Part shown: in pieces, positions 4,456-39,950 of the stretch
Numbering within the stretch: the stretch's first letter is position 1
Layout of the letters: each line of letters starts with the position of its first letter
NCBI GenBank assembly: GCA_947479085.1
Contig: CANJYB010000031.1
Span: 1 to 44,029 of the forward strand
DNA: 44,029 bases
Source: Bacteroidota bacterium
GTDB taxonomy: Bacteria; Bacteroidota; Bacteroidia; 2-12-FULL-35-15
Reading direction: 5' to 3'
Program-made: the position numbers and the translations under genes
The notes under the pieces: generated by a model
Databases searched by the model: none
What the model was told of the DNA's origin: nothing
The model's input: only the letters and a program-made list of their open reading frames with translations

Positions 4456-7400
4456 ATGTTGAATCCTTACAAATTCATTTTATCAAAAACCAAAATCCTC
4501 TTTGTTTCATTGATGATATTGGCTTTTTGCTTTTATTCCAATAAAGCTAATGCACAGGCGCCCGGAGCTACATGCATCGCTGCTGTTGCTATTGGAGGTA
4601 CCGGGGCTGTTCCTGGTTGTACCGGTGCAGTAACAATGAATGATTTTACTCAGGAAGTAGGTTCACCAGCCATGACCTGTTTGGGTGCAGGAATATTTAG
4701 GAGGGAAGGATGGTATACATTCAATGCGCCAGGAGGACAAGCCATTACTGTAACTGCCACTGCTACAACTGCTACCAGCAATCTTTTAATACAAGTTATT
4801 TCTGGTACTTGTGCAGCCGAAGTGCAAATTGGCTGCGCAAATAATATTATAACTAATAGTGCTCAAACTGAGGCCGTTTCCTTAGGCGTATTAGGTGCTG
4901 GAACTTATTTCATCCGAATTGTTAATGTTGGTACATCAGTAAACATGGCTGTTTCTAACGTTTGTGTTAATGCAACTCCTGCCAATGATGACTGTGCCAA
5001 TGCAAGTCCGATTGTTCCCTTAGGTGCTTCGTTAGGTTGTGGAGGAACCGCAGGTACAACAGCAGGTGCGACCCAACAAAATACAATAGCTCCTTGCACC
5101 GCTGCAAACACCACTAATGATGATGTTTGGTACACTTTCACGACCACTTCTACTTCGCATATTATTACCGTTACTCCTTCCGCAAGTATGAATATAGTTT
5201 TCGAATTATTTTCAACCAATCCTTGCGGTGGCGCTGGAACTTCACTTAATTGTGTAAATATAAACGGGGTAGGACAGACAGAAACATTAAGTCTTACTGG
5301 TATAGGAATTGCAACTCAATATTGGGTTAGGGTTTATGATGTAGGGACAGGTATTCCTGCTACCTCCACATTTACCATCTGCATTCAAACACCTCCGCCC
5401 AATGATAATTGTTTAAATGCAATAGTTCTTGCTCCTGCTGCAACCTGTGTTACAACTACAGGTAATGTAGGGGTTGCCTCCTCTTCAGGAATTGCAGCTT
5501 CAGGAACTTGCGCATCCAGCAACCCTGACGATGACGTTTGGTATACTTTTACCGCTACAGGTACCACACATACTATCCAAGTAACAGGTTCTGCAAATTT
5601 CGATCCGGGGTATGAGGTTTTTACAGGTTCCTGCGGGGCTCTTACATCCATATTCTGTAATGCATCCGGAGGAAATTCGGGACTTACTCTTACAGATGTT
5701 ATTGCCACCATTCCTACTACTCAATATTGGATTCGTGTATATGATTATGGTATTGCCTATCCAGCATCCACCACTTTTACCATTTGTATTTTAAATCCGC
5801 CTCCGGCTAATGATGATTGTACAGGAGCTATAGCTTTAACTCCTTTAACTTCAACCTGTGTAGCCGGTTCTAATCAGCAAACAGGAGATGTTTCCGGTGC
5901 CACACAATCGATGGTAGGATGTACAGGAGTAGCCAATGATGATGTATGGTATACATTCACCACTACTGCAACTCCTAATCAGCCTTATTTAATTACTGTC
6001 AGCGGTGCTGCCCCTTTTAATGCTGTATTTGAAGTGTTTTCAGGAACCTGTGCTGCTCTTGTTTCTGTGCCAACAAGCTGTACAAATGCGACAGGTGCTG
6101 GAGGCACGGAGACGTTAACATTGACGGCAGGATTTCAATTAGCTGTAAGTACTACTTATCGCATAAGGGTTTATGATGCAAATTCAGGTTATCCTACCAA
6201 TACTAATTTTACTATTTGTGTTACTATTCCACCTATTAATGATAATTGTAATGGAACTTCAATAGGAGTATATGGTAATATAACAACTCCGGCAATTTGT
6301 GGTTTAACTACTGCGGGAACCTTAACAGGTGCAACTGCTTCCGGATTTGCAGCTACCTGCGGAGGAACCCCTTCTGCAGATGTGTTTTATACTTTTACAT
6401 CTACCTCCACTACTCATATTATAACCGTAACCCCTACCTGTGGAACAATGAATCCTGCAATACAGGTGTATTCCGGTTCCTGTGGAGGAACTTCTATAAG
6501 CTGTACCAATGCTTTTGGAAATGGGGTGGCCGAAAATGCCTATTTATCAGGGCTTACTAATGCCACTGTTTATTATGTAAGAGTATATGATTTTAATGGT
6601 GTTTCTGCCTGCACTTCTTTTAATATTTGTGTTTCCACACCTCCAGTTAATGACCCTTGTGCTTCGGCAATTAACTTAACTGTTTCTACTTCCTGTGTTA
6701 ATACTTCCGGTTCCATCTTAAACGGAACACAATCGTTTGTTTCTAATTGTGCAGGCACAACAGTTTCTTCTGATGTATGGTATAGGTTTACAGCTGCGTC
6801 TGCCACACAAACTATAACAGTTACAGGTGCAGCAGGGATAGATGTCGTGTATGAATTATATTCGAGCAGTCCTTGCGCAGGAGGAGGAACATATGTAGGT
6901 TGCCGGAATTTAACAGGTACAGGAGGTAGTGAAACTAATGCATGGACAGGATTAACTGCAGGAAATGTTTATTGGGTAAGAGTGTATGATGCCAGTGGTG
7001 GCAATACCACTTCAGCATTTGCTATTTGTGTGGTTACTCCTTTAAATAATACATGTGCCAATGCTATTCCTGTTACTTGCGGTGTAACCTATACAGGAAA
7101 TTCAAATATAGGTATCGCCAATGCACCGGCATCCTGTACATCCAACGCAGGAGGAAATCCTGGAGTATGGTATGTATTTACGGGTACAGGACAAAATGTA
7201 TTTGCCAGTTTATGTGGTTCCAGTTATGACACCCAGATATATGTTTATAGCAGTACCGGCCCTTGTACTGGCTTAGCTTGTGTTGCGGGAAATGATGATT
7301 CGGGAGGTGTTTGTGGTTTACAATCGATTACAACGTTTGGAACCACGGCCGGTGTTAATTACTATATTTTTATATGTGGTTTTTCGGGTCAAACAGGTGC

Positions 7401-11349: not shown

Positions 11350-11601
11350 TGAGGCTTATGGAAAATGTGTTTTTGCATAAATCAGGCCCATCGGCATACG
11401 CGGATGCTCCATCGGGATATGCGGATTACGTTTTCGCGTATGTAAAAATTTCATCGGGATATGTGGATGGTGTTTTGGCATAAGTAAAAAGAGTATCGGG
11501 ATATGCGAATGCAATTTTCACGTACGTTAAAATCGTTTTCACTTACGTGAAAATCGTTTTCGCGTACGTGAAAACCTTATCCGCATACGTGGATGAAGCA
11601 T
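11350..11601. repeat. Tandem array of twelve degenerate 21-bp units
   Basis: Units start at 11350 and recur every 21 bases (11371, 11392, 11413 and so on to 11581). Each has a core like TACGTGAAAATCGTTTTCGC and is partly palindromic: the motif TTTTC(A/G)CgTACGTGAAAA recurs at unit junctions. On the minus strand one frame reads degenerate heptads such as 'TYAKTIF' and 'AYPDTLF', but it contains two stops. Confidence 0.8.
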
Positions 11602-29617: not shown

Positions 29618-30240
29618 TGCAGATAAATGAAAATTAATTATAAGTTATAATTATTCCGATTAACAATTACACAGTTACGATTAACTTGCCAAATGTATTG
29701 TTTAGTTTTTTATTTTCAAAATTTATTAGTCAAAAAGTCTATTTTTATCTGAATAGTAAAAAGCTCTCAGTACAAAAAAGCCTAATTGTTTTTTACCAAC
29801 CAAAACTGAAGTGCTTAAATCTGAATGTTTTAATGGTTCGAAACCTCTAAAGGTATTTTGTAACCTTGATTATATGTGTCCAAATCAGGGGGGTAGGTTA
29901 TCCGAACTTGCTTGATGAGTAGTATATATTTGTTTTGGTAAGTCAGAGAAATGGTGTTAGAGGTTCCCGGGTTATTAATCATTGCCCCCCCGCTCAATAG
30001 TGATAGTTTCCCAACCAATAGTTATTCATCCCCAACCAATAGTTACTCATTACCAACCAATAGTTATTCATTCCCAACCAATAGTTATTCGTTCCCAACC
30101 AATAGTTATTCGTTCCCAACCAATAGTTATTCATTCCCAACCAATAGTGATGCATTTCCATCAAAATATAACGTATTCCAATACTTAGTTTGCCTGTTAA
30201 CAATACCCTATTGTTGAAAAACTTAGTAATAAAAGAAAAA
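29618..30240. other. Gene-free region with a 21-bp tandem array
   Basis: No credible gene is found. The left 370 bases are AT-rich. The right part is the 21-bp array at 29990-30178. Open frames here on both strands exist only because the period is a multiple of three. Confidence 0.6.
29990..30178. repeat. Tandem array of nine 21-bp units
   Basis: Seven well-kept units start at 30011, 30032, 30053, 30074, 30095, 30116 and 30137 with consensus CCAACCAATAGTTATTCATT plus C. Degenerate units flank them (29990 and 30158). All frames stay open: the plus strand reads heptads 'SFPTNSY' and the minus strand 'NNYWLGT'. Confidence 0.92.
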
Positions 30241-31491: not shown

Positions 31492-31501
31492 TGATAGATG
31501 T

Positions 31502-31534
31502 TTGAAAAATATAGGAGCAAATTCATTACATTTG
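31502..31534 (+). promoter_or_regulatory. Promoter placing recR on a leaderless mRNA
   Basis: TTG at 31502-31504, a 22-bp spacer and TACATTTG at 31527-31534 match the consensus. The -7 box ends only 5 bases before the recR ATG at 31540. Confidence 0.55.
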
Positions 31535-31539
31535 CCTCT

Positions 31540-32160
31540 ATGAATTTTTCATCAAAATTAATTGAAGAAGCTGTTAATCAATTCAGCAGACTTCCGGGTG
31601 TGGGGAAACGAACAGCCTTAAGGTATGTCCTCTTTTTATTGAAACAAAACGAAACCGAAGTTACCCAGTTTGGAAGTGCTTTTATAAAATTACGTAACGA
31701 ACTTCGTTACTGCGAAAAATGCCATAATGTTTCCGATAAACCTTTATGCGAAGTATGCTCCAATCCTCACCGCGAGCATAGCCTTGTATGTGTGGTGGAA
31801 GATATAAGAGATGTAATGGCTATTGAAAATACCAATCAGTTTCGTGGCGTTTATCATGTTTTGGGAGGAATCATTTCGCCCATGGATGGCATAGGCCCTT
31901 CTGATTTGAATATCGAGACCCTTGTTGGTAAAGCTACTTCGGGTGAAATAAAAGAAGTCATCATGGCCCTGAGCACTACCATGGAAGGCGACACTACAAA
32001 TTTTTACATCTATAAAAGATTAAAGGAATTTAATATTACCGTTTCCACCATTGCCCGCGGTATTTCCATTGGTGATGAACTGGAATATGCTGATGAAATT
32101 ACCTTGGGGCGTTCCATTGTCAATCGTACTCTTTACGAAAATACGTTTTCCATAAAATGA
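31540..32160 (+). CDS. recR: Recombination mediator protein RecR
   Basis: The 206-residue protein has an N-terminal helix-hairpin-helix ('[11 protein letters not shown]', 18-28), a four-Cys zinc finger (Cys58, 61, 70, 73) and a Toprim domain beginning '[15 protein letters not shown]'. With RecO and RecF it loads RecA on gapped DNA. The frame is open 14 codons upstream from a TTG, but ATG 31540 is the family start and follows the promoter. It is divergent from the RsmB-like gene. Confidence 0.95.
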
Positions 32161-32164
32161 TTTT

Positions 32165-32231
32165 CCGATTTACCAATGTACCAATGTGCGGATGGAAGCG
32201 CAAATTATTTTATTAATTAAAATGAATTAAT
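32165..32231 (+). repeat. Left copy of an imperfect direct repeat around the S23 gene
   Basis: The block CCGATTTACC..ATG..GGATGGAAGC followed by G(C)GCAAA and TTTTATTAATTAAAA ends at the ATG of the four-helix-bundle gene. A matching block lies at 32601-32660, just after the gene. Confidence 0.7.
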
Positions 32232-32579
32232 ATGGAACCTAAAAAGGATAACCTAATCGTTAATTTAACTTTCAAATTTTCGTTAGAGATTATTGAATTT
32301 ACTGAACTGCTTGAGTCAAAAAGAAAATACAATATGGCTAATCAGCTATTTAGAAGCGGTACAAGTATAGGTGCAAATGTCAGGGAAGCTCAAAATGCTG
32401 AAAGCAAAGCTGATTTTATTCATAAAATAAAGATTGCTGCCAAAGAAGCCGAAGAGTCTGAATATTGGCTATTATTGTGCAAATCCAGTAAAAATTATCC
32501 TGATTGCGATTCCCTGTTATTGCAAGCACAAAGTATATTAAAGGTAATTGGTAAAATACTATCCTCATCAAAAAAATGA
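32232..32579 (+). CDS. Four-helix-bundle protein (23S rRNA intervening-sequence / S23 family)
   Basis: The 115-residue, all-helical protein has 'LFRSGTSIGANVREAQNAES' (40-59) and 'DFIHKIKIAAKEAEESEYWL' (61-80), the hallmark of the S23/four-helix-bundle family. These are found within 23S rRNA intervening sequences, beside diversity-generating retroelements (Avd), and as free-standing genes of unknown role. This copy is free-standing with no reverse transcriptase or rRNA near. It is bracketed by direct repeats and followed by a palindromic repeat cluster, which suggests it travels as a unit. Confidence 0.9.
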   Translation: MEPKKDNLIVNLTFKFSLEIIEFTELLESKRKYNMANQLFRSGTSIGANVREAQNAESKADFIHKIKIAAKEAEESEYWLLLCKSSKNYPDCDSLLLQAQSILKVIGKILSSSKK

Positions 32580-32586
32580 ACAGTCT

Positions 32587-32660
32587 GATTTACCGATGTG
32601 CCGATTTACCGATGTGCCGATGGAAGCACAAAAGATTTTTTTAATTAAAAGGAATTTCAT
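32587..32660 (+). repeat. Right direct repeat plus tandem GATTTACCGATGTGCC units
   Basis: Two tandem copies of GATTTACCGATGTGCC (32587-32618) run into GATGGAAGCACAAAAGATTT and TTTTAATTAAAA (to about 32660), matching the block before the gene. Confidence 0.7.
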
Positions 32661-32713
32661 TAATAAGAAAACGAATAAAATAATAATAAGAGTATAAATT
32701 TAATTAATCAATT

Positions 32714-32877
32714 GGCAAATCAAATCATAGGTAAATCGGTACATCATACAATCGGTACATCGGTAAATCTCTTAATCTGTAAATCAGTACATCAATTAAT
32801 CGGTAAATCGGTACATCATACAATCGGTAAATCGTTACATCAATTAATCGGTACATCATTTAATCAGTAAATTAATC
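32714..32877. repeat. Cluster of GGTAAATCGGTACATC repeats
   Basis: At least eight degenerate copies of (G)GTAAATCGGTACATCA(A/T) occur. They are the reverse complement of the GATTTACCGATGTGCC units 100 bases upstream, so long hairpins can form. The cluster ends at the ATG of the next gene, leaving no separate promoter visible. Confidence 0.75.
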
Positions 32878-32879
32878 CA

Positions 32880-34835
32880 ATGAAATTAACTGTCATTATT
32901 GTTAATTACAATGTTCAGCACTTTCTCGAACAGTGTTTACACTCTGTTTACAAGGCGGTGAAGAATGTGGAAGCAGAAATATATGTAGTCGATAATAATT
33001 CTGTGGATGGTTCGGTGGCAATGGTGAAGCAGAAATTTCCCGAAGTACTCCTTATTGAAAATAAAAAGAACACCGGATTTTCTTATGCAAATAACCAGGC
33101 CATACGCATTGCAAAAGGTGAATATGTTTTGCTTCTTAATCCTGATACGGTGGTGGAAGAAGATACCTTTGAAAAAACCATTGCATTTATGGATGCACAT
33201 CCTGATGCGGGAGGATTAGGTGTTAAAATGCTGGATGGAAAAGGTAATTTTCTGCCCGAATCAAAACGTGGATTGCCAACCCCTTCCGTAGCATTTTATA
33301 AAATATTTGGTTTGTCCGCCTTGTTTCCAAAATCAAAACTATTTGGAAAATATCATCTTGGTTTTTTAGATAAAGATAAAACAAACGAAGTAGATATACT
33401 TTCAGGAGCCTTTATGTTGATGCGAAAAACCGTATTGGATAAAGTAGGTTTGCTGGACGAAACTTTTTTTATGTACGGAGAAGACATAGATTTGTCTTAT
33501 CGTATAGTATTAGGCGGATATAAAAATTATTATTTCCCCGAAACACGCATTATTCATTACAAAGGCGAGAGCACCCGCAAGAGCAGTGTGAATTATGTGT
33601 TTGTGTTTTACAAAGCCATGGTCATTTTTGCGCAGAAACATTTTTCACAAAACAATGCAAAACTATTTTCCTTTCTTATCAACTTTGCCATTTACCTGCG
33701 TGCCGGAACAGCCATCATCATTCGTTTTCTTAAATCCATAGCCTTACCTGCGTTCGATTTTGGTTTAATACTTATAGGATTATTTTTAATCAAGGATTAT
33801 TACGCCACCAATTTTAAATTCATTGCCGGTGGTTCTTACTCCGATACCCTTATCAAAATTGCATTTCCGGTGTATATTCTCATCTGGATGTTTACCGTTT
33901 ATTTAAGCGGTGGATATGATAAACCCATTCGTCTTACTAAAATTTTGCGGGGAGTATTTGTAGGTACAGGTATTATATTAATCGGATATTCATTGTTGCC
34001 CGAGGCATATCGTTTTTCAAGAGCATTGATTTTATTGGGTACCGGTTGGGTGGTATTGTCGTATTTAATTTCACGTATTGCATTTCATGTGGCAGGGTTT
34101 AAATCGTTTAATCTCAACCCGGATAAAAGTAAACGTATAGCAATTATTGGCAAGCAGGAAGAGTTTGAAAGGGTCAATAATTTACTCAAACAAACCAATA
34201 TCCAGGCAAGCTTCCTTGGCTTTATAAGCGCTGACGAGAGCGGAAACGGACATGTGAACTATGTGGGAACCATCAACCAGATAAGCGAAGTAATAGAAAT
34301 TTATAAAATCAATGAAGTGATATTTTGTTCCCGCGATATTTCTTCACAAGGTATCATCGATTACATGCATACCCTTGTTTCGGCAGATGTTGATTTTAAG
34401 ATAGCACCGCCTGAAAGCCTTTCTATTATTGGAAGTAACTCTATTGATACCGCAGGAGATTTATACATTATTGATGTTAATTCCATCAGTAAATCAAAGA
34501 ACAAAAGAAACAAACGATTATTCGATATTCTTGCCAGCCTTTTATTCCTGGTGCTTTCCCCGGTCCTTATTTTATTTCAGAAAAACAAAGCAGGCTTTAT
34601 TCGTAATGTTTTTTCCATATTATTTGGAGTTAAATCATGGGTTGGTTATGGCAGCGAAAAACAGGAGCACTTACCAAAATTAAAACCATCCGTTTTATCG
34701 CCTGCCGATGCCATAAAAAATATAAACATAACCACCGATACCCGAAACCGCCTGCATCTTGCGTATTCCAAAGATTACCGAATTCAAAACGATTTGAATA
34801 TTGTATGGAAATCGCTTAGTAATTTAGGGAAGTAA
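32880..34835 (+). CDS. GT2 glycosyltransferase fused to a CoA-binding/sugar-transferase-like membrane protein
   Basis: Residues 1-240 form a GT2 rhamnosyltransferase-like domain ('VIIVNYNV', 'VVDNNSVDGS', 'LLNPDT', 'MYGEDIDLSYRI'). Residues 265-405 hold about five membrane helices. Residues 415-535 resemble the CoA-binding_3 domain of polyprenyl-phosphate sugar phosphotransferases ('RIAIIGKQEEF', 'NEVIFCSRDIS'). Residues 545-566 match the start of the PglC/WbaP-type catalytic domain ('KRLFDILASLLFLVLSPV'), but the following catalytic part is shortened and has no recognisable Asp-Glu pair. The phosphotransferase half is therefore probably inactive and may act as a membrane anchor or sensor. 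A role in surface glycan assembly is likely. Confidence 0.82.
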   Translation: MKLTVIIVNYNVQHFLEQCLHSVYKAVKNVEAEIYVVDNNSVDGSVAMVKQKFPEVLLIENKKNTGFSYANNQAIRIAKGEYVLLLNPDTVVEEDTFEKTIAFMDAHPDAGGLGVKMLDGKGNFLPESKRGLPTPSVAFYKIFGLSALFPKSKLFGKYHLGFLDKDKTNEVDILSGAFMLMRKTVLDKVGLLDETFFMYGEDIDLSYRIVLGGYKNYYFPETRIIHYKGESTRKSSVNYVFVFYKAMVIFAQKHFSQNNAKLFSFLINFAIYLRAGTAIIIRFLKSIALPAFDFGLILIGLFLIKDYYATNFKFIAGGSYSDTLIKIAFPVYILIWMFTVYLSGGYDKPIRLTKILRGVFVGTGIILIGYSLLPEAYRFSRALILLGTGWVVLSYLISRIAFHVAGFKSFNLNPDKSKRIAIIGKQEEFERVNNLLKQTNIQASFLGFISADESGNGHVNYVGTINQISEVIEIYKINEVIFCSRDISSQGIIDYMHTLVSADVDFKIAPPESLSIIGSNSIDTAGDLYIIDVNSISKSKNKRNKRLFDILASLLFLVLSPVLILFQKNKAGFIRNVFSILFGVKSWVGYGSEKQEHLPKLKPSVLSPADAIKNINITTDTRNRLHLAYSKDYRIQNDLNIVWKSLSNLGK

Positions 34836-36935: not shown

Positions 36936-37322
36936 CTATTGTTTTATTTCAGTTTTTTGATTTTGTTTTGCCTGCACATTTCTATCATGATGTAATTTTG
37001 CCATTCCTATTGCTAGTGTAACCGACACAATTATATAAATTATTGTATTCCTTCCACTATTAGGTTTGAGCTTAACTTCTTTGTACCTGGCTGGTAAAAT
37101 AATAATCAAGTAATTTAGAACGCAAACAATTACCGCTAAAGTATTGGTTACCTTGCTAGAAATTGGTATATCGGGATAAATAAAATAGCTGATTATATCA
37201 TAAATACTAAAAAAGTTAGCTGTTACAATAAAGGATGATGCCCAAAAAGTATATATAACCGGATGGCTATCCCTGCGAGCATAGAAATGATAAATTGTAG
37301 AACAAAGTCTTAAATAAAACAT
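36936..37322 (-). CDS. Multi-spanning membrane protein, possible immunity protein
   Basis: The 128-residue protein has about four hydrophobic helices (roughly 24-46, 60-76, 88-104) and a charged, Gln/Lys-rich tail. I do not recognise a named family. Its place at the end of a toxin/immunity-like array, 34 bp after another candidate immunity gene, makes an integral-membrane immunity protein possible. That is inference from position only. Confidence 0.5.
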   Translation of the reverse strand: MFYLRLCSTIYHFYARRDSHPVIYTFWASSFIVTANFFSIYDIISYFIYPDIPISSKVTNTLAVIVCVLNYLIIILPARYKEVKLKPNSGRNTIIYIIVSVTLAIGMAKLHHDRNVQAKQNQKTEIKQ

Positions 37323-37356
37323 AGTAATTACAAAGTAATTGTGATTGCCATTAACT

Positions 37357-37770
37357 TCAATTTTTTTCCAATTCTATTTTTCTTTTAAAGTATATTTGAA
37401 TTGCATCTATATTTCTTTCCACTAATTGATTGTAAAAATCTTCATTATTGCATAGTTCGTCAAATCCAACTATTGAATAAATATCACTTTTACTTGACTT
37501 GCCATTCACTTTTAAAAACCACTCTTTTGGTAAACAGTTATCAGTAATTTCAAATAATAAATAAGGAAACCAATCTGGCTTTCCGTTAACATCAATTAAA
37601 AAATATATACAATTAGTATCTTTATAAACAACAAGCCCCATAATCAAATATTCTCTATTAATCTCGAGACCATAACCACCAAAACTATAATCAAAATCAT
37701 GCGAAAATACAGTAGTTACTTCCTTTAGGTCAAACCCTTTAGATGTTGTTTGTTTACATATAGCTTTCAT
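37357..37770 (-). CDS. Hypothetical protein, candidate immunity protein
   Basis: The 137-residue soluble protein has 'LEINREYLIMGLVVY', 'IYFLIDVNGKPDWFPYLLFE' and a C-terminal 'DAIQIYFKRKIELEK'. The pattern resembles small proteins found after Rhs/CdiA toxin genes, though I cannot name the family. The key evidence is position: a 25-codon toxin-like tail ends in TAG at 37773-37775, two bases before this ATG (37768-37770), as in a toxin/immunity pair. Confidence 0.55.
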   Translation of the reverse strand: MKAICKQTTSKGFDLKEVTTVFSHDFDYSFGGYGLEINREYLIMGLVVYKDTNCIYFLIDVNGKPDWFPYLLFEITDNCLPKEWFLKVNGKSSKSDIYSIVGFDELCNNEDFYNQLVERNIDAIQIYFKRKIELEKN

Positions 37771-37772
37771 AA

Positions 37773-37847
37773 CTATTTACCATCAATAAATTTAAAATCA
37801 TCAACCGCTTTCAAAACCCCATTTTTAAACTGTCCAACAAAATGATT
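37773..37847 (-). pseudogene. 3' scar of a toxin gene
   Basis: Twenty-five codons read 'NHFVGQFKNGVLKAVDDFKF' then 'IDGK' and a TAG. This looks like the basic last strand of a polymorphic toxin ('G.FKNG.L..V'). A stop precedes it at 37848-37850, so the rest is gone. It abuts the immunity candidate at 37770. Confidence 0.4.
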
Positions 37848-37867
37848 TCAACCTTCAAGAAGTATTT

Positions 37868-38224
37868 TTAAACTAAAATTTTAAGTTCTCCCTTATTAAT
37901 TGAATATGATTCAAATTGGTCGTCTTCAATTAGTGTTAAAATAATCTTATTGGAGAACTTTATATGCAAATTTTTTCGTTCGAAATCAGTATAGGAATCT
38001 ATTATTTCGGTTTCAATTAAAGAAAAAAGACCACTATCATTTTTCACAGGGTAGACATTGTACTTCAATTGTTGGTTATTTTCTTCTATAATAAAGTCTC
38101 CTTCAATAGTTATTCGAGTTAAACTTTCGAAATGAAAATGAATTTGATTTGCGGTAAAGCAAATCATGTTTAATTTTTCTCCTTTAAGGATTTTCGGGTC
38201 AAAAGAACTTAGAAGTGAATACAT
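37868..38224 (-). CDS. Hypothetical beta-rich protein, candidate immunity protein
   Basis: The 118-residue protein has alternating beta strands and ends 'KIILTLIEDDQFESYSINKG', then 'ELKILV'. That end resembles small immunity-type proteins annotated around polymorphic toxins (a DUF6188-like impression, low certainty). There is no signal peptide or membrane helix. It follows the WapI-like gene by 44 bp. The function is otherwise unknown. Confidence 0.5.
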   Translation of the reverse strand: MYSLLSSFDPKILKGEKLNMICFTANQIHFHFESLTRITIEGDFIIEENNQQLKYNVYPVKNDSGLFSLIETEIIDSYTDFERKNLHIKFSNKIILTLIEDDQFESYSINKGELKILV

Positions 38225-38268
38225 GTTATTTTTATCTAAAGAAAGCCTAACGGAACTTAATTATTAAG

Positions 38269-38700
38269 CTACAAATATTTATCAATTGGGCTTTCTTTGG
38301 TAAATCTATTTACCACTTCTTCACATTGATTTATAAGTTCAGGAAGTAATTCTTGTCCCATTTCAAATTTAAATTCTAATCTCGAGGAATAATCTTCACT
38401 TCTTAGATTGCCTGTAATCATTATTTGTCCTGTAGTATTAGGCTCAAATTTTATGGTCAAGTATTTATCATTATGCTGAAAGAAAAAAATTCTTTTAAGT
38501 GACTCATTTAAAACTTTCAAGTTAGCTAACATTTCAGAAATATCCGTTAACTCAACTAAAATATTTGATTTAGCTTCAAAGCCATTAATATTAACAGACG
38601 TCAAAAAGTTAATAAATATAAATGGTTCAATACTCCCCTTTTTAAAATTACTAAATGTAATAATTGGAGTTCCAATTGTATTTTTTATTTCTATTTTCAT
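38269..38700 (-). CDS. WapI-like immunity protein
   Basis: The 143-residue protein has the pattern 'ILVELTDISEMLANLKVLNE', 'YLTIKFEPNTTGQIMITGNL' and 'RLEFKFEMGQELLPELINQC', which I recognise as the WapI-type immunity family (named for the partner of the WapA toxin). It starts 6 bp after the stop of the toxin-like gene at 38707, the classical order and spacing for a toxin with its cognate immunity. It should bind and block that toxin in the cytoplasm. Confidence 0.6.
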   Translation of the reverse strand: MKIEIKNTIGTPIITFSNFKKGSIEPFIFINFLTSVNINGFEAKSNILVELTDISEMLANLKVLNESLKRIFFFQHNDKYLTIKFEPNTTGQIMITGNLRSEDYSSRLEFKFEMGQELLPELINQCEEVVNRFTKESPIDKYL

Positions 38701-38706
38701 TTTTTA

Positions 38707-39426
38707 TTAATGGAATGGAACAATTTCTTCAAAACATCTATGAAAAATAACATTATTAGAATTAATGCCAATTTGATATACTCCTTCAGTTCCGTTTACA
38801 GTACCCGGCAATTCATACCAATCTGCGCCATCTTTAAGTCGTTGAGCCCAAGCTCCTTCGTTTATTATATGTTTGTCCCAAGAATAAGGAAATTTGTGGT
38901 AAGAGCCCTTTTTTCCAGCTATTTCCGGAATATATTCATACGGAAAATCTTGGGAAATATTATACAAAGATATAGCTGTTTTTAATATAGCACCCATATT
39001 TACCAAATAAAAATCCAAATAAACAGGTTGCATTCCCTCTCCTCTTAGGGCAACATCATGATAATGTTGAGCTTCAGAATAAGTAGGTTGAAAAATTGGT
39101 CCATCCCCACCGCCACCACCATGCGGACCACTTGAAGAAGCACTACCAATACCATCATACCCAGCCCCATTCTCACTTGCCGGTGTTCCTTGGTTTACAC
39201 CTGGAAGCGAATATGAGGGAGATGGCGAACTCATAGAAATACCATCTGAAGGCCCATAGTATGGAGAAACCGAACCATGATCCCTACTATTCGCATCGAT
39301 TGATATTGAAGAAATGCTTAAAGATGTCATATTTTCATACTCCACCCGTTGGGCGTAGCGTCCCGCTACGTCCTGTTTAGCAAGGCATCCTGCCTTTTTA
39401 GTATTCATTCCTAATATGTTTTCCAC
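38707..39426 (-). CDS. C-terminal region of a polymorphic (Rhs/CdiA-type) toxin joined to a REP-derived 5' end
   Basis: Residues 1-27 (from a GTG at 39424-39426) are translated RAYT/REP repeat sequence. From 'VEYEN' on, the protein has a Ser/Gly/Pro-rich linker (35-112), a helical pretoxin part (113-160) and a compact C-terminal domain with 'KGSYHKFPYSWDKHI', 'DGADWYELPGTVNGTEGVYQ' and a final 'VIFHRCFEE'. The Gly-rich linker, small basic/aromatic end domain and the downstream immunity gene fit a secreted polymorphic toxin; the fold may be of the BECR RNase type, but I cannot assign it. The large upstream delivery part is missing, so this is a displaced toxin tip, possibly silent. Confidence 0.6.
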   Translation of the reverse strand: MENILGMNTKKAGCLAKQDVAGRYAQRVEYENMTSLSISSISIDANSRDHGSVSPYYGPSDGISMSSPSPSYSLPGVNQGTPASENGAGYDGIGSASSSGPHGGGGGDGPIFQPTYSEAQHYHDVALRGEGMQPVYLDFYLVNMGAILKTAISLYNISQDFPYEYIPEIAGKKGSYHKFPYSWDKHIINEGAWAQRLKDGADWYELPGTVNGTEGVYQIGINSNNVIFHRCFEEIVPFH

Positions 39427-39476
39427 TGCCTTGCAATTAAAATTACGTCCAACAAACCCTTTCCATCAGCATAGTC
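39345..39476 (-). repeat. Copy A of a 132-bp RAYT-tail/REP unit
   Basis: It contains the last 20 codons of a RAYT transposase (to a TAG), then two hairpins: AAGGCA-TCC-TGCCTT (39382-39396) and CGTAGCG-TCC-CGCTACG (39354-39370). It differs from copy B (43634-43765) at two bases. It joins a truncated T9SS gene (right) to a toxin gene fragment (left). Confidence 0.92.
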
Positions 39477-39950
39477 AATTGCATCGTTTGAATTACTATC
39501 CAATAAACTATCGTTAGAAATGTACGCACCTAAATTACTTATTGCGTATCCTGAATTTTCTGCTCTCGATATATAAAATTCAACACAATAATTTCTATTG
39601 GCGATTAGTGTATCCAATAATGGCACTTCCATATATTCACGATAATTCATAGTATCAGTATATACAATTATGCCAGCATATTTTACTCCAGTTCTAGCCC
39701 ATTGGTATCCTCCATCATTATATGGAACTCCAGCCCCGCTACCAACAGAGTTATCGCAAGTATCATACAAATCTGTTGAAGACCAATTAGTATGAGGTAC
39801 AAACCATGGTATTGCATAAAACAGATCACTCCCCATAAATGGGCAAGCGGTATCAACTTCAAAAGAGTAATTTGGAACTATATTTTGTGCAGTAACAAGT
39901 GAATGTTGCAGAATACTAAACAAAACAATAGAAAAGATTAATTTTTTCAT
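39411..39950 (-). pseudogene. T9SS small-protein paralogue truncated by the RAYT-tail/REP unit
   Basis: The signal peptide (1-21) and first 155 residues closely match the intact paralogue at 39952-40908 ('NLVPNYSFE' type, 'GYQWARTGVKYAGIIVY', 'NRNYCVEFY'). At 'DAIDY' the sequence switches to 'ADGKGLLDVILIARQWKTY', the RAYT C-terminus. The whole C-terminal half, including the sorting domain, is lost, so the product cannot use T9SS. Its ATG is one base after the previous gene's TAA. Confidence 0.85.

Follow-up and report, generated by a model that had tools for sequence, protein, structure and literature searches.

A small S23/IVP gene of the Bacteroidota lies inside an operon between its own pair of mirror-image repeat arrays, and in about a hundred loci compared the version of the protein predicts whether the repeats step every 7 or every 8 bases. 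We discuss genomic context, repeat structure, protein clade, and turnover of this gene and its relatives. Together these features point to an undescribed kind of compact mobile cassette, in which binding of the repeats by the protein and movement of the element are both inferred. We place the probability of this reading at roughly 0.62.

The window is the whole 44,029-nucleotide stretch analysed: contig CANJYB010000031.1 of assembly GCA_947479085.1, a Bacteroidota genome of 4.28 Mb in 50 contigs. The features of the cassette and its host genes are as follows.

31498-32160, + strand: recR (Pfam RecR/Toprim), the upstream host gene; its TGA stop lies directly at the start of the cassette, and the same junction was read in 30 genomes of the genus.
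32162-32193, + strand: left array, four 8-nt units with a RAT core (TTTCCGAT TTACCAAT GTACCAAT GTGCGGAT).
32158-32228, + strand: left copy of a 71-nt direct repeat (array plus spacer), 83% identical to 32586-32656.
32232-32579, + strand: S23/IVP gene, predicted four-helix bundle protein of 115 aa, here assigned to clade B1.
32586-32656, + strand: right copy of the direct repeat, four units at 32590-32621 plus spacer; it looks like a local duplication of the left end and is not seen beside the IVP of the near relative G005.
32703-32878, - strand: right inverted array, 22 units in unbroken 8-nt register, with an AT core in 22 of 22.
32880-34835, + strand: glycosyltransferase family 2 gene (GT2, PF00535), the downstream host gene.

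An earlier note, made from the sequence alone, described a free-standing S23 gene bracketed by direct repeats of about 60 bp and followed by an inverted cluster of at least eight units reaching up to the next ATG. That observation is real, and the structure is larger than described. The inverted array holds 22 contiguous units and ends one base before the ATG at 32880. All 22 units start with AT, whereas 2000 dinucleotide shuffles of the same stretch reach 6.4 on average and 11 at most; four of the other six positions vary widely. A core is thus kept without an indel over 176 bases, although the left arm has only 4 units (8 with the direct copy) to pair with. Chance is excluded: 11 matches to GATKTRCCRATKTRCC with up to 2 mismatches lie in the window, all between 32159 and 32841, against 0.65 expected (largest of 100 shuffles, 2). 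The note also had the right copy continue into tandem units; in fact, the tandem units come first in that copy. Its statement that no transposase, reverse transcriptase (RT), or rRNA is present held within the scope of our searches: no transposase or RT family was matched by the 44 window ORFs scanned against Pfam, of 50 ORFs of at least 90 aa, and no rRNA or other Rfam family reached its gathering score in the window.

The protein belongs to the S23/IVP family, scoring 78.3 bits against PF05635 where the curated cut-off is 33.8. The AlphaFold2 model is a confident four-helix bundle (pLDDT 93.8; helices 8-29, 33-54, 59-85, and 93-114). In a Foldseek search, the closest folds are 2rld (E 1.6e-6) and 2gsc, each with five chains in its entry, and, much more weakly, the diversity-generating retroelement (DGR) accessory protein Avd (4dwl, 8ub7; E-values of 0.15 and more), also inside a DGR ribonucleoprotein. 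The protein is under strong purifying selection: dN/dS is 0.02-0.18 in 7 of 10 IVP pairs tried, where 2 further pairs had saturated dS and 1 (ratio 0.79) was discarded because it compared two different IVPs.

Mirrored arrays flank most IVP genes examined. In the first search, 57 of 59 genomes, this one among them, have a PF05635 match. The window's genome has eight, seven over the cut-off; by eye, those seven have arrays on both sides, each with its own sequence. By ORF calls, six of the seven lie between two co-oriented neighbours; in the seventh (locus L072), the upstream call is an 87-aa frame on the other strand next to the array, probably spurious. The eighth (L073, on contig C18 at about 7.7-8.3 kb) is a weak match beside a gene that, by eye, ends like a DGR variable region, with a second similar stretch; it looks like a DGR Avd and has no matching arms (p 0.71).

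To quantify the arms, we collected 57 distinct IVP frames, L073 among them, from this genome and relatives, and scored the left flank against the reverse complement of the right. Of 53 with usable flanks, 45 show inverted complementarity at p<=0.05 (the window locus at p 0.025) and 39 at p<=0.01; the median score is 35, against 14 for left and right arms taken from different loci. Many of these are orthologous sites, so they are not all independent. All 8 failures were kept in the count, although L043, L077, and L081 probably have a misplaced start or a truncated frame and a fourth is L073. The same test on 115 other genes of 33 of these loci gives 6 at p<=0.05 and 4 at p<=0.01; 3 of the 6 are an IVP or next to one. 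In the 80 best of 565 confirmed relatives of a type-A IVP among one genome per species, 63 of 73 scored pass p<=0.05; 4 of the 80 coincide with genomes already used. In 27 viral contigs, several of them near copies of each other, 18 of 20 scored pass. The window IVP as query in viral contigs gave 18 pattern matches, none a relative.

The spacing of the units is constrained, while their sequence is not. Self-similarity of the flanks exceeds shuffles at lags 7 and 14, less at 8, 15, and 16, and at 18 in the viral set; the other lags from 3 to 20 are near background. Unit sequence varies freely between sites, although orthologous sites in different species often keep a similar one, and we therefore rejected a fixed arm sequence as the binding site.

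Unit length follows the protein clade. We searched 295 genomes of the class with the window protein (126 have a match at E<=1e-12), took the 30 loci returned plus 40 stretches chosen down the list, and added the recR-site loci and six other loci of this genome, for a chosen sample of 89 distinct IVP frames. Of the 58 with at least 50% identity to the window protein, 51 have 8-nt units, none 7, and 7 are unclear or other. Of the 31 below 50%, 24 have 7-nt units, 1 has 8, and 6 are unclear. Fisher's test gives 7e-19, without correction for kinship. On a tree of 127 IVPs, 108 of them labelled, the 7/8 label needs 2 changes, against 36 on shuffled labels, with 0 of 500 as low. The switch is essentially one change on this tree, so the coupling of clade and step is strong in loci but not in independent origins. 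Two rows stand out: L336_0, a 7-nt IVP on a long branch at the base of the 8-nt clade, and L353, an 8-nt IVP outside it. L353 is the only scored IVP below 50% identity with 8-nt units (AAAAAGAT-like), a possible second switch of step. In this genome the window's cassette is the one with 8-nt units; five of the other six scored as 7, with L072 unclear by threshold.

The site does not seem to dictate the step. Downstream frames were found for 84 of the 89 IVPs. Those of the 8-nt clade form 15 clusters, of which two are the same glycosyltransferase gene and three look like spurious frames, leaving at least 11 apparent different genes; the others form 24 clusters, one shared.

The units of the 8-nt clade share a core. 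From 48 of the 58 loci, 36 distinct circular 8-mers align with AT at 96-97% and a purine before it, at 7.32 bits per unit against 3.45 +- 0.15 for letter-shuffled units. The signal is weaker for 7-nt units: 5.70 against 4.21 +- 0.36 in 10 units of clade B2, 4.75 against 3.83 +- 0.31 in 13 viral units, and 3.27 against 2.85 +- 0.08 in 66 units of type A. Pooled 7-nt units give 2.88 against 2.61 +- 0.07, weak support for a single core across IVPs; separated by clade, the core is strong only in B1. Within one locus, both arms carry the same unit: the mean circular distance is 1.68 against 3.10 for mispaired arms of the 8-nt clade, in the 40 of 58 loci with units on both arms, and 1.46 against 2.64 in 24 of the 31 other loci, with 0 of 2000 permutations as low in either set. 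Common descent alone would blur all positions alike; here the core stays and the rest turns over.

Presence of the cassette at the recR site is patchy. recR was found in 33 of 36 genus genomes, this one included, and 30 loci were read; the recR|GT2 junction is conserved in them. Eleven hold an IVP with 8-nt-type arrays. Two (G020 and G013) hold an ORF-less array. Seven are empty sites with the bare 4-base stop/start overlap intact, and one more (G033) is nearly so. The remaining nine have short spacers or other inserts, some resembling scars of the right arm. Near neighbours differ: G010 has the cassette and G019 the bare overlap. Occupied and empty sites share ATGA at both ends in some genomes, but keeping both codons would give this anyway, and no target-site duplication was proved. 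On a recR+atpG tree of the 30 genomes, presence needs 9 changes, no fewer than shuffled labels (mean 9.2), and well-supported branches force at least 7; one row, G023, is very long, probably misframed, and unreliable.

The cassette's tree conflicts with that of its hosts. The IVPs of the site reject the host tree (11 genomes, difference of 88 log units, AU p 8e-67), and recR and IVP protein identities are uncorrelated over 78 pairs of 13 genomes (Spearman 0.08). For example, G002 and G027 have recR 95% but IVP 69% identical, while G000 and G093, from different families with the cassette at the same junction, have recR 69% and IVP 83%. Repeated arrival, or tandem copies with hidden paralogy and differential loss, could both give this: the recR|GT2 junction of G030 (L107) holds a broken and an intact IVP copy in tandem, with arrays between them, and the window shows a duplicated left end. 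Nucleotide identity of IVP against its flanks, compared for evidence of independent movement, shows no sharp step at the recR site in the genus, but identities are near saturation and an automated extraction found no IVP in two genomes.

Arrays of this kind also occur without an IVP gene. The earlier note had named repeats unlinked to S23 genes as evidence against its reading, and that condition is half fulfilled: IVP implies arrays, but arrays do not imply IVP. Two arrays of the window's motif family stand elsewhere in this genome without an IVP, between atpA and atpG and between a peptidase and a hydrolase gene (gene names by eye). At atpA|atpG, about 19 of 26 resolved genus genomes (30 loci read) carry such a hairpin by eye, with 7- or 8-nt units that differ between species. 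In other intergenic regions of the fetched loci, 6 of 105 co-directional ones show both a hairpin and a 7/8 period, against 0 of 49 divergent or convergent ones.

A second gene family shows a similar layout. G005 carries a GxxExxY gene (PF13366, PD-(D/E)XK-like) at atpA|atpG. GxxExxY genes are present in 36 of 36 genus genomes and are also flanked by inverted arrays, of other motifs (CACAGAG, CGCAAAG, CGCAGAT, CACTAAG): 16 of 20 scored of 30 loci pass p<=0.05, where the 10 others had no frame by pattern search. This is possibly a parallel cassette class with a nuclease.

Cassettes sit mostly between co-directional genes. Upstream neighbours are co-oriented in 55 of 56 and downstream in 55 of 57, against 117 of 165 other adjacent pairs; the counts are 74 of 75 and 73 of 76 in the one-genome-per-species set, and 69 of 72 and 61 of 70 in the class-wide set. 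Co-orientation is not universal: in viral contigs, 18 of 26 upstream and 21 of 26 downstream neighbours are antisense.

We favor a reading in which this is one copy of a compact, horizontally moving cassette: an S23/IVP gene between two inverted arrays of short iterated units, sitting in the junction of two co-directional genes and probably expressed by read-through. The computation establishes that arrays flank IVP genes generally; that the two arms carry the same unit, inverted; that unit sequence is free from site to site while its length and, for this clade, its core follow the IVP clade; that the protein is under strong purifying selection; that presence at a site turns over and conflicts with the host tree; and that ORF-less arrays exist. 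The remainder is inference, namely binding, excision, and transposition. In this view, IVP would be an oligomer like its solved relatives and DGR Avd and would bind the arms with one core per 7- or 8-nt step. It would in this way mark and protect, pair, or process the ends of the element, as end-binding proteins do on iteron-ended elements. The core is kept in right-arm units beyond those that can pair, and it faces opposite ways in the two arms; both facts suit recognition of a double strand, or of a hairpin stem, more than pairing alone. No recombinase, nuclease, or RT lies in the cassette, so movement is inferred. The cutting or copying step would come from the host or from another element in trans.

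The earlier note's interpretation, a gene-plus-repeat cassette that duplicates or moves with the repeats as possible binding or folding sites of the protein, is thus partly supported. The cassette itself is supported, and the coupling of step to clade fits recognition of the repeats by the protein. The bracketing 71-nt direct repeat, in contrast, is not the general boundary; the general boundary is a pair of inverted arrays.

Other explanations appear less likely, but each accounts for part of the data. The cassette may be a host regulatory module, in which the arms form a stem in the polycistronic mRNA around the IVP frame and IVP with host RNase III controls processing or coupling between the two operon genes, the repeats being RNA sites under host selection. 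The co-directional setting agrees with this, and RNA folding pairs the arms by at least 12 bp in 46 of 53 cassettes, against 17 of 53 with a swapped right arm; the window cassette has an RNA z of -3.03 on 20 shuffles, and the related rRNA element of Coxiella is excised by RNase III (PMC4990558). However, the antisense strand folds equally well, many relatives do without the cassette at the same junction, and at least 14 right units cannot pair at one time, yet all keep register and core. We consider this module unlikely, though it is the strongest of the alternatives.

Still less likely, the cassette moves only with its neighbours, by homologous recombination between species. The conserved recR|GT2 junction could serve as homology, and flank and IVP nucleotide identities are of the same order. 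Against this stand the uncorrelated recR and IVP identities and the occurrence of one IVP clade in many unrelated junctions. It is similarly doubtful that the arrays come from replication slippage or another general process of operon junctions, with IVP genes landing there by chance or preference and not acting on them. The ORF-less hairpins of co-directional junctions and the atpA|atpG arrays of both step lengths favor this view; the step length that follows the clade across many sites, the contrast of 45 of 53 with 6 of 115, the match of arms within a locus, and the lack of matching arms at L073 argue against it.

The closest comparison is with 23S rRNA intervening sequences (IVS) that carry an S23 frame, such as that of Coxiella burnetii, where the frame lies inside terminal inverted repeats that pair as a stem and tandem heptamers (GACAGAT) precede it (PMC4990558). 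ORF-less IVS exist elsewhere. The present cassette likewise has inverted ends able to pair around the frame and may work much like an intervening sequence moved out of rRNA, but it lies between recR and GT2 and not in a 23S rRNA gene, the defining feature of an IVS, both of its ends are iterated arrays, and its frame is under strong purifying selection, whereas the Coxiella paper describes reductive evolution. The DGR protein Avd has a similar four-helix fold, at weak Foldseek E-values, but DGR membership of the window gene was rejected: no RT family was matched among the 44 window ORFs scanned. The DGR-like IVP hit of this genome has no matching arms. As in an insertion sequence, there are terminal inverted repeats and empty sites in relatives, but only PF05635 matched in the cassette's frame, with no transposase.

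REP sequences with RAYT genes (PMC2817692) offer a further parallel. They have a single gene between inverted extragenic repeats, with gene-less copies elsewhere in intergenic DNA; here, no Y1 tyrosine transposase was matched, and the units are 7-8 nt iterons with site-specific sequence rather than conserved palindromes. By these tests the cassette is not a DGR, an insertion sequence, or a RAYT. Iteron-ended elements such as Tn7 or Mu ends, and plasmid iterons, carry repeated protein-binding units in opposite orientation at the two ends; in the present cassette there is no transposase, and only step and core, not unit sequence, are fixed across sites. Searches of the open-access literature, which reached few subscription papers or preprints, showed no description of free-standing IVP genes with arrays.

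S23/IVP proteins are widespread, structurally solved, and functionally unknown; the entry 2rld is titled as of unknown function. If the protein sets the step of its own flanking repeats, the arms are a concrete, testable ligand, with a predicted spacing per clade and, for this clade, a predicted core. This would also explain a class of intergenic 7-8 nt arrays in Bacteroidota, link rRNA intervening sequences to a mobile element of operon junctions, and provide a natural series of proteins whose binding register changed from 7 to 8 nt. A broader and more tentative possibility, which we hold to be somewhat less likely than not, is that free-standing S23/IVP genes are the protein half of an undescribed class of iteron-ended mobile elements. 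In that case, a pentameric four-helix protein would read double-stranded or hairpin arms through a short core at a fixed, clade-specific step of 7 or 8 nt, while the rest of each unit is free and is homogenised across both arms of a site. Such elements would home repeatedly into the same junctions of core operons and shed ORF-less hairpins; rRNA IVSs would be one branch of the class, and enzymes supplied in trans, or a parallel class built on GxxExxY nuclease-like genes, would do the cutting.

One arm in a viral contig (L258) resembled the TAACTGA heptamers of Beggiatoaceae, cyanobacteria, and Bacteroidetes, intergenic 7-nt tandem repeats of unknown origin (PMC4679880), and we asked whether those arrays are IVP arms. 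They are not in this sample: 0 of 104 viral-contig loci have an IVP within 300 nt, and 1 of 104 has one at all. Some of these loci (L366 at 2453-2905, L433 at 4802-5261, and also L368, L381, L395, and L426) hold pairs of TAACTGA arrays in direct orientation, about 432-439 nt apart, around a small region without IVP, perhaps another cassette kind. Elsewhere in the window, outside the cassette, tandem repeats of a 21-nt unit (7.3 copies) lie at 30008-30160 and an approximate array of 21/42 nt at 11410-11591. Finally, positions 36936-39950 hold a run of small minus-strand genes, five of six without a Pfam match, with one WapI-like immunity protein gene.
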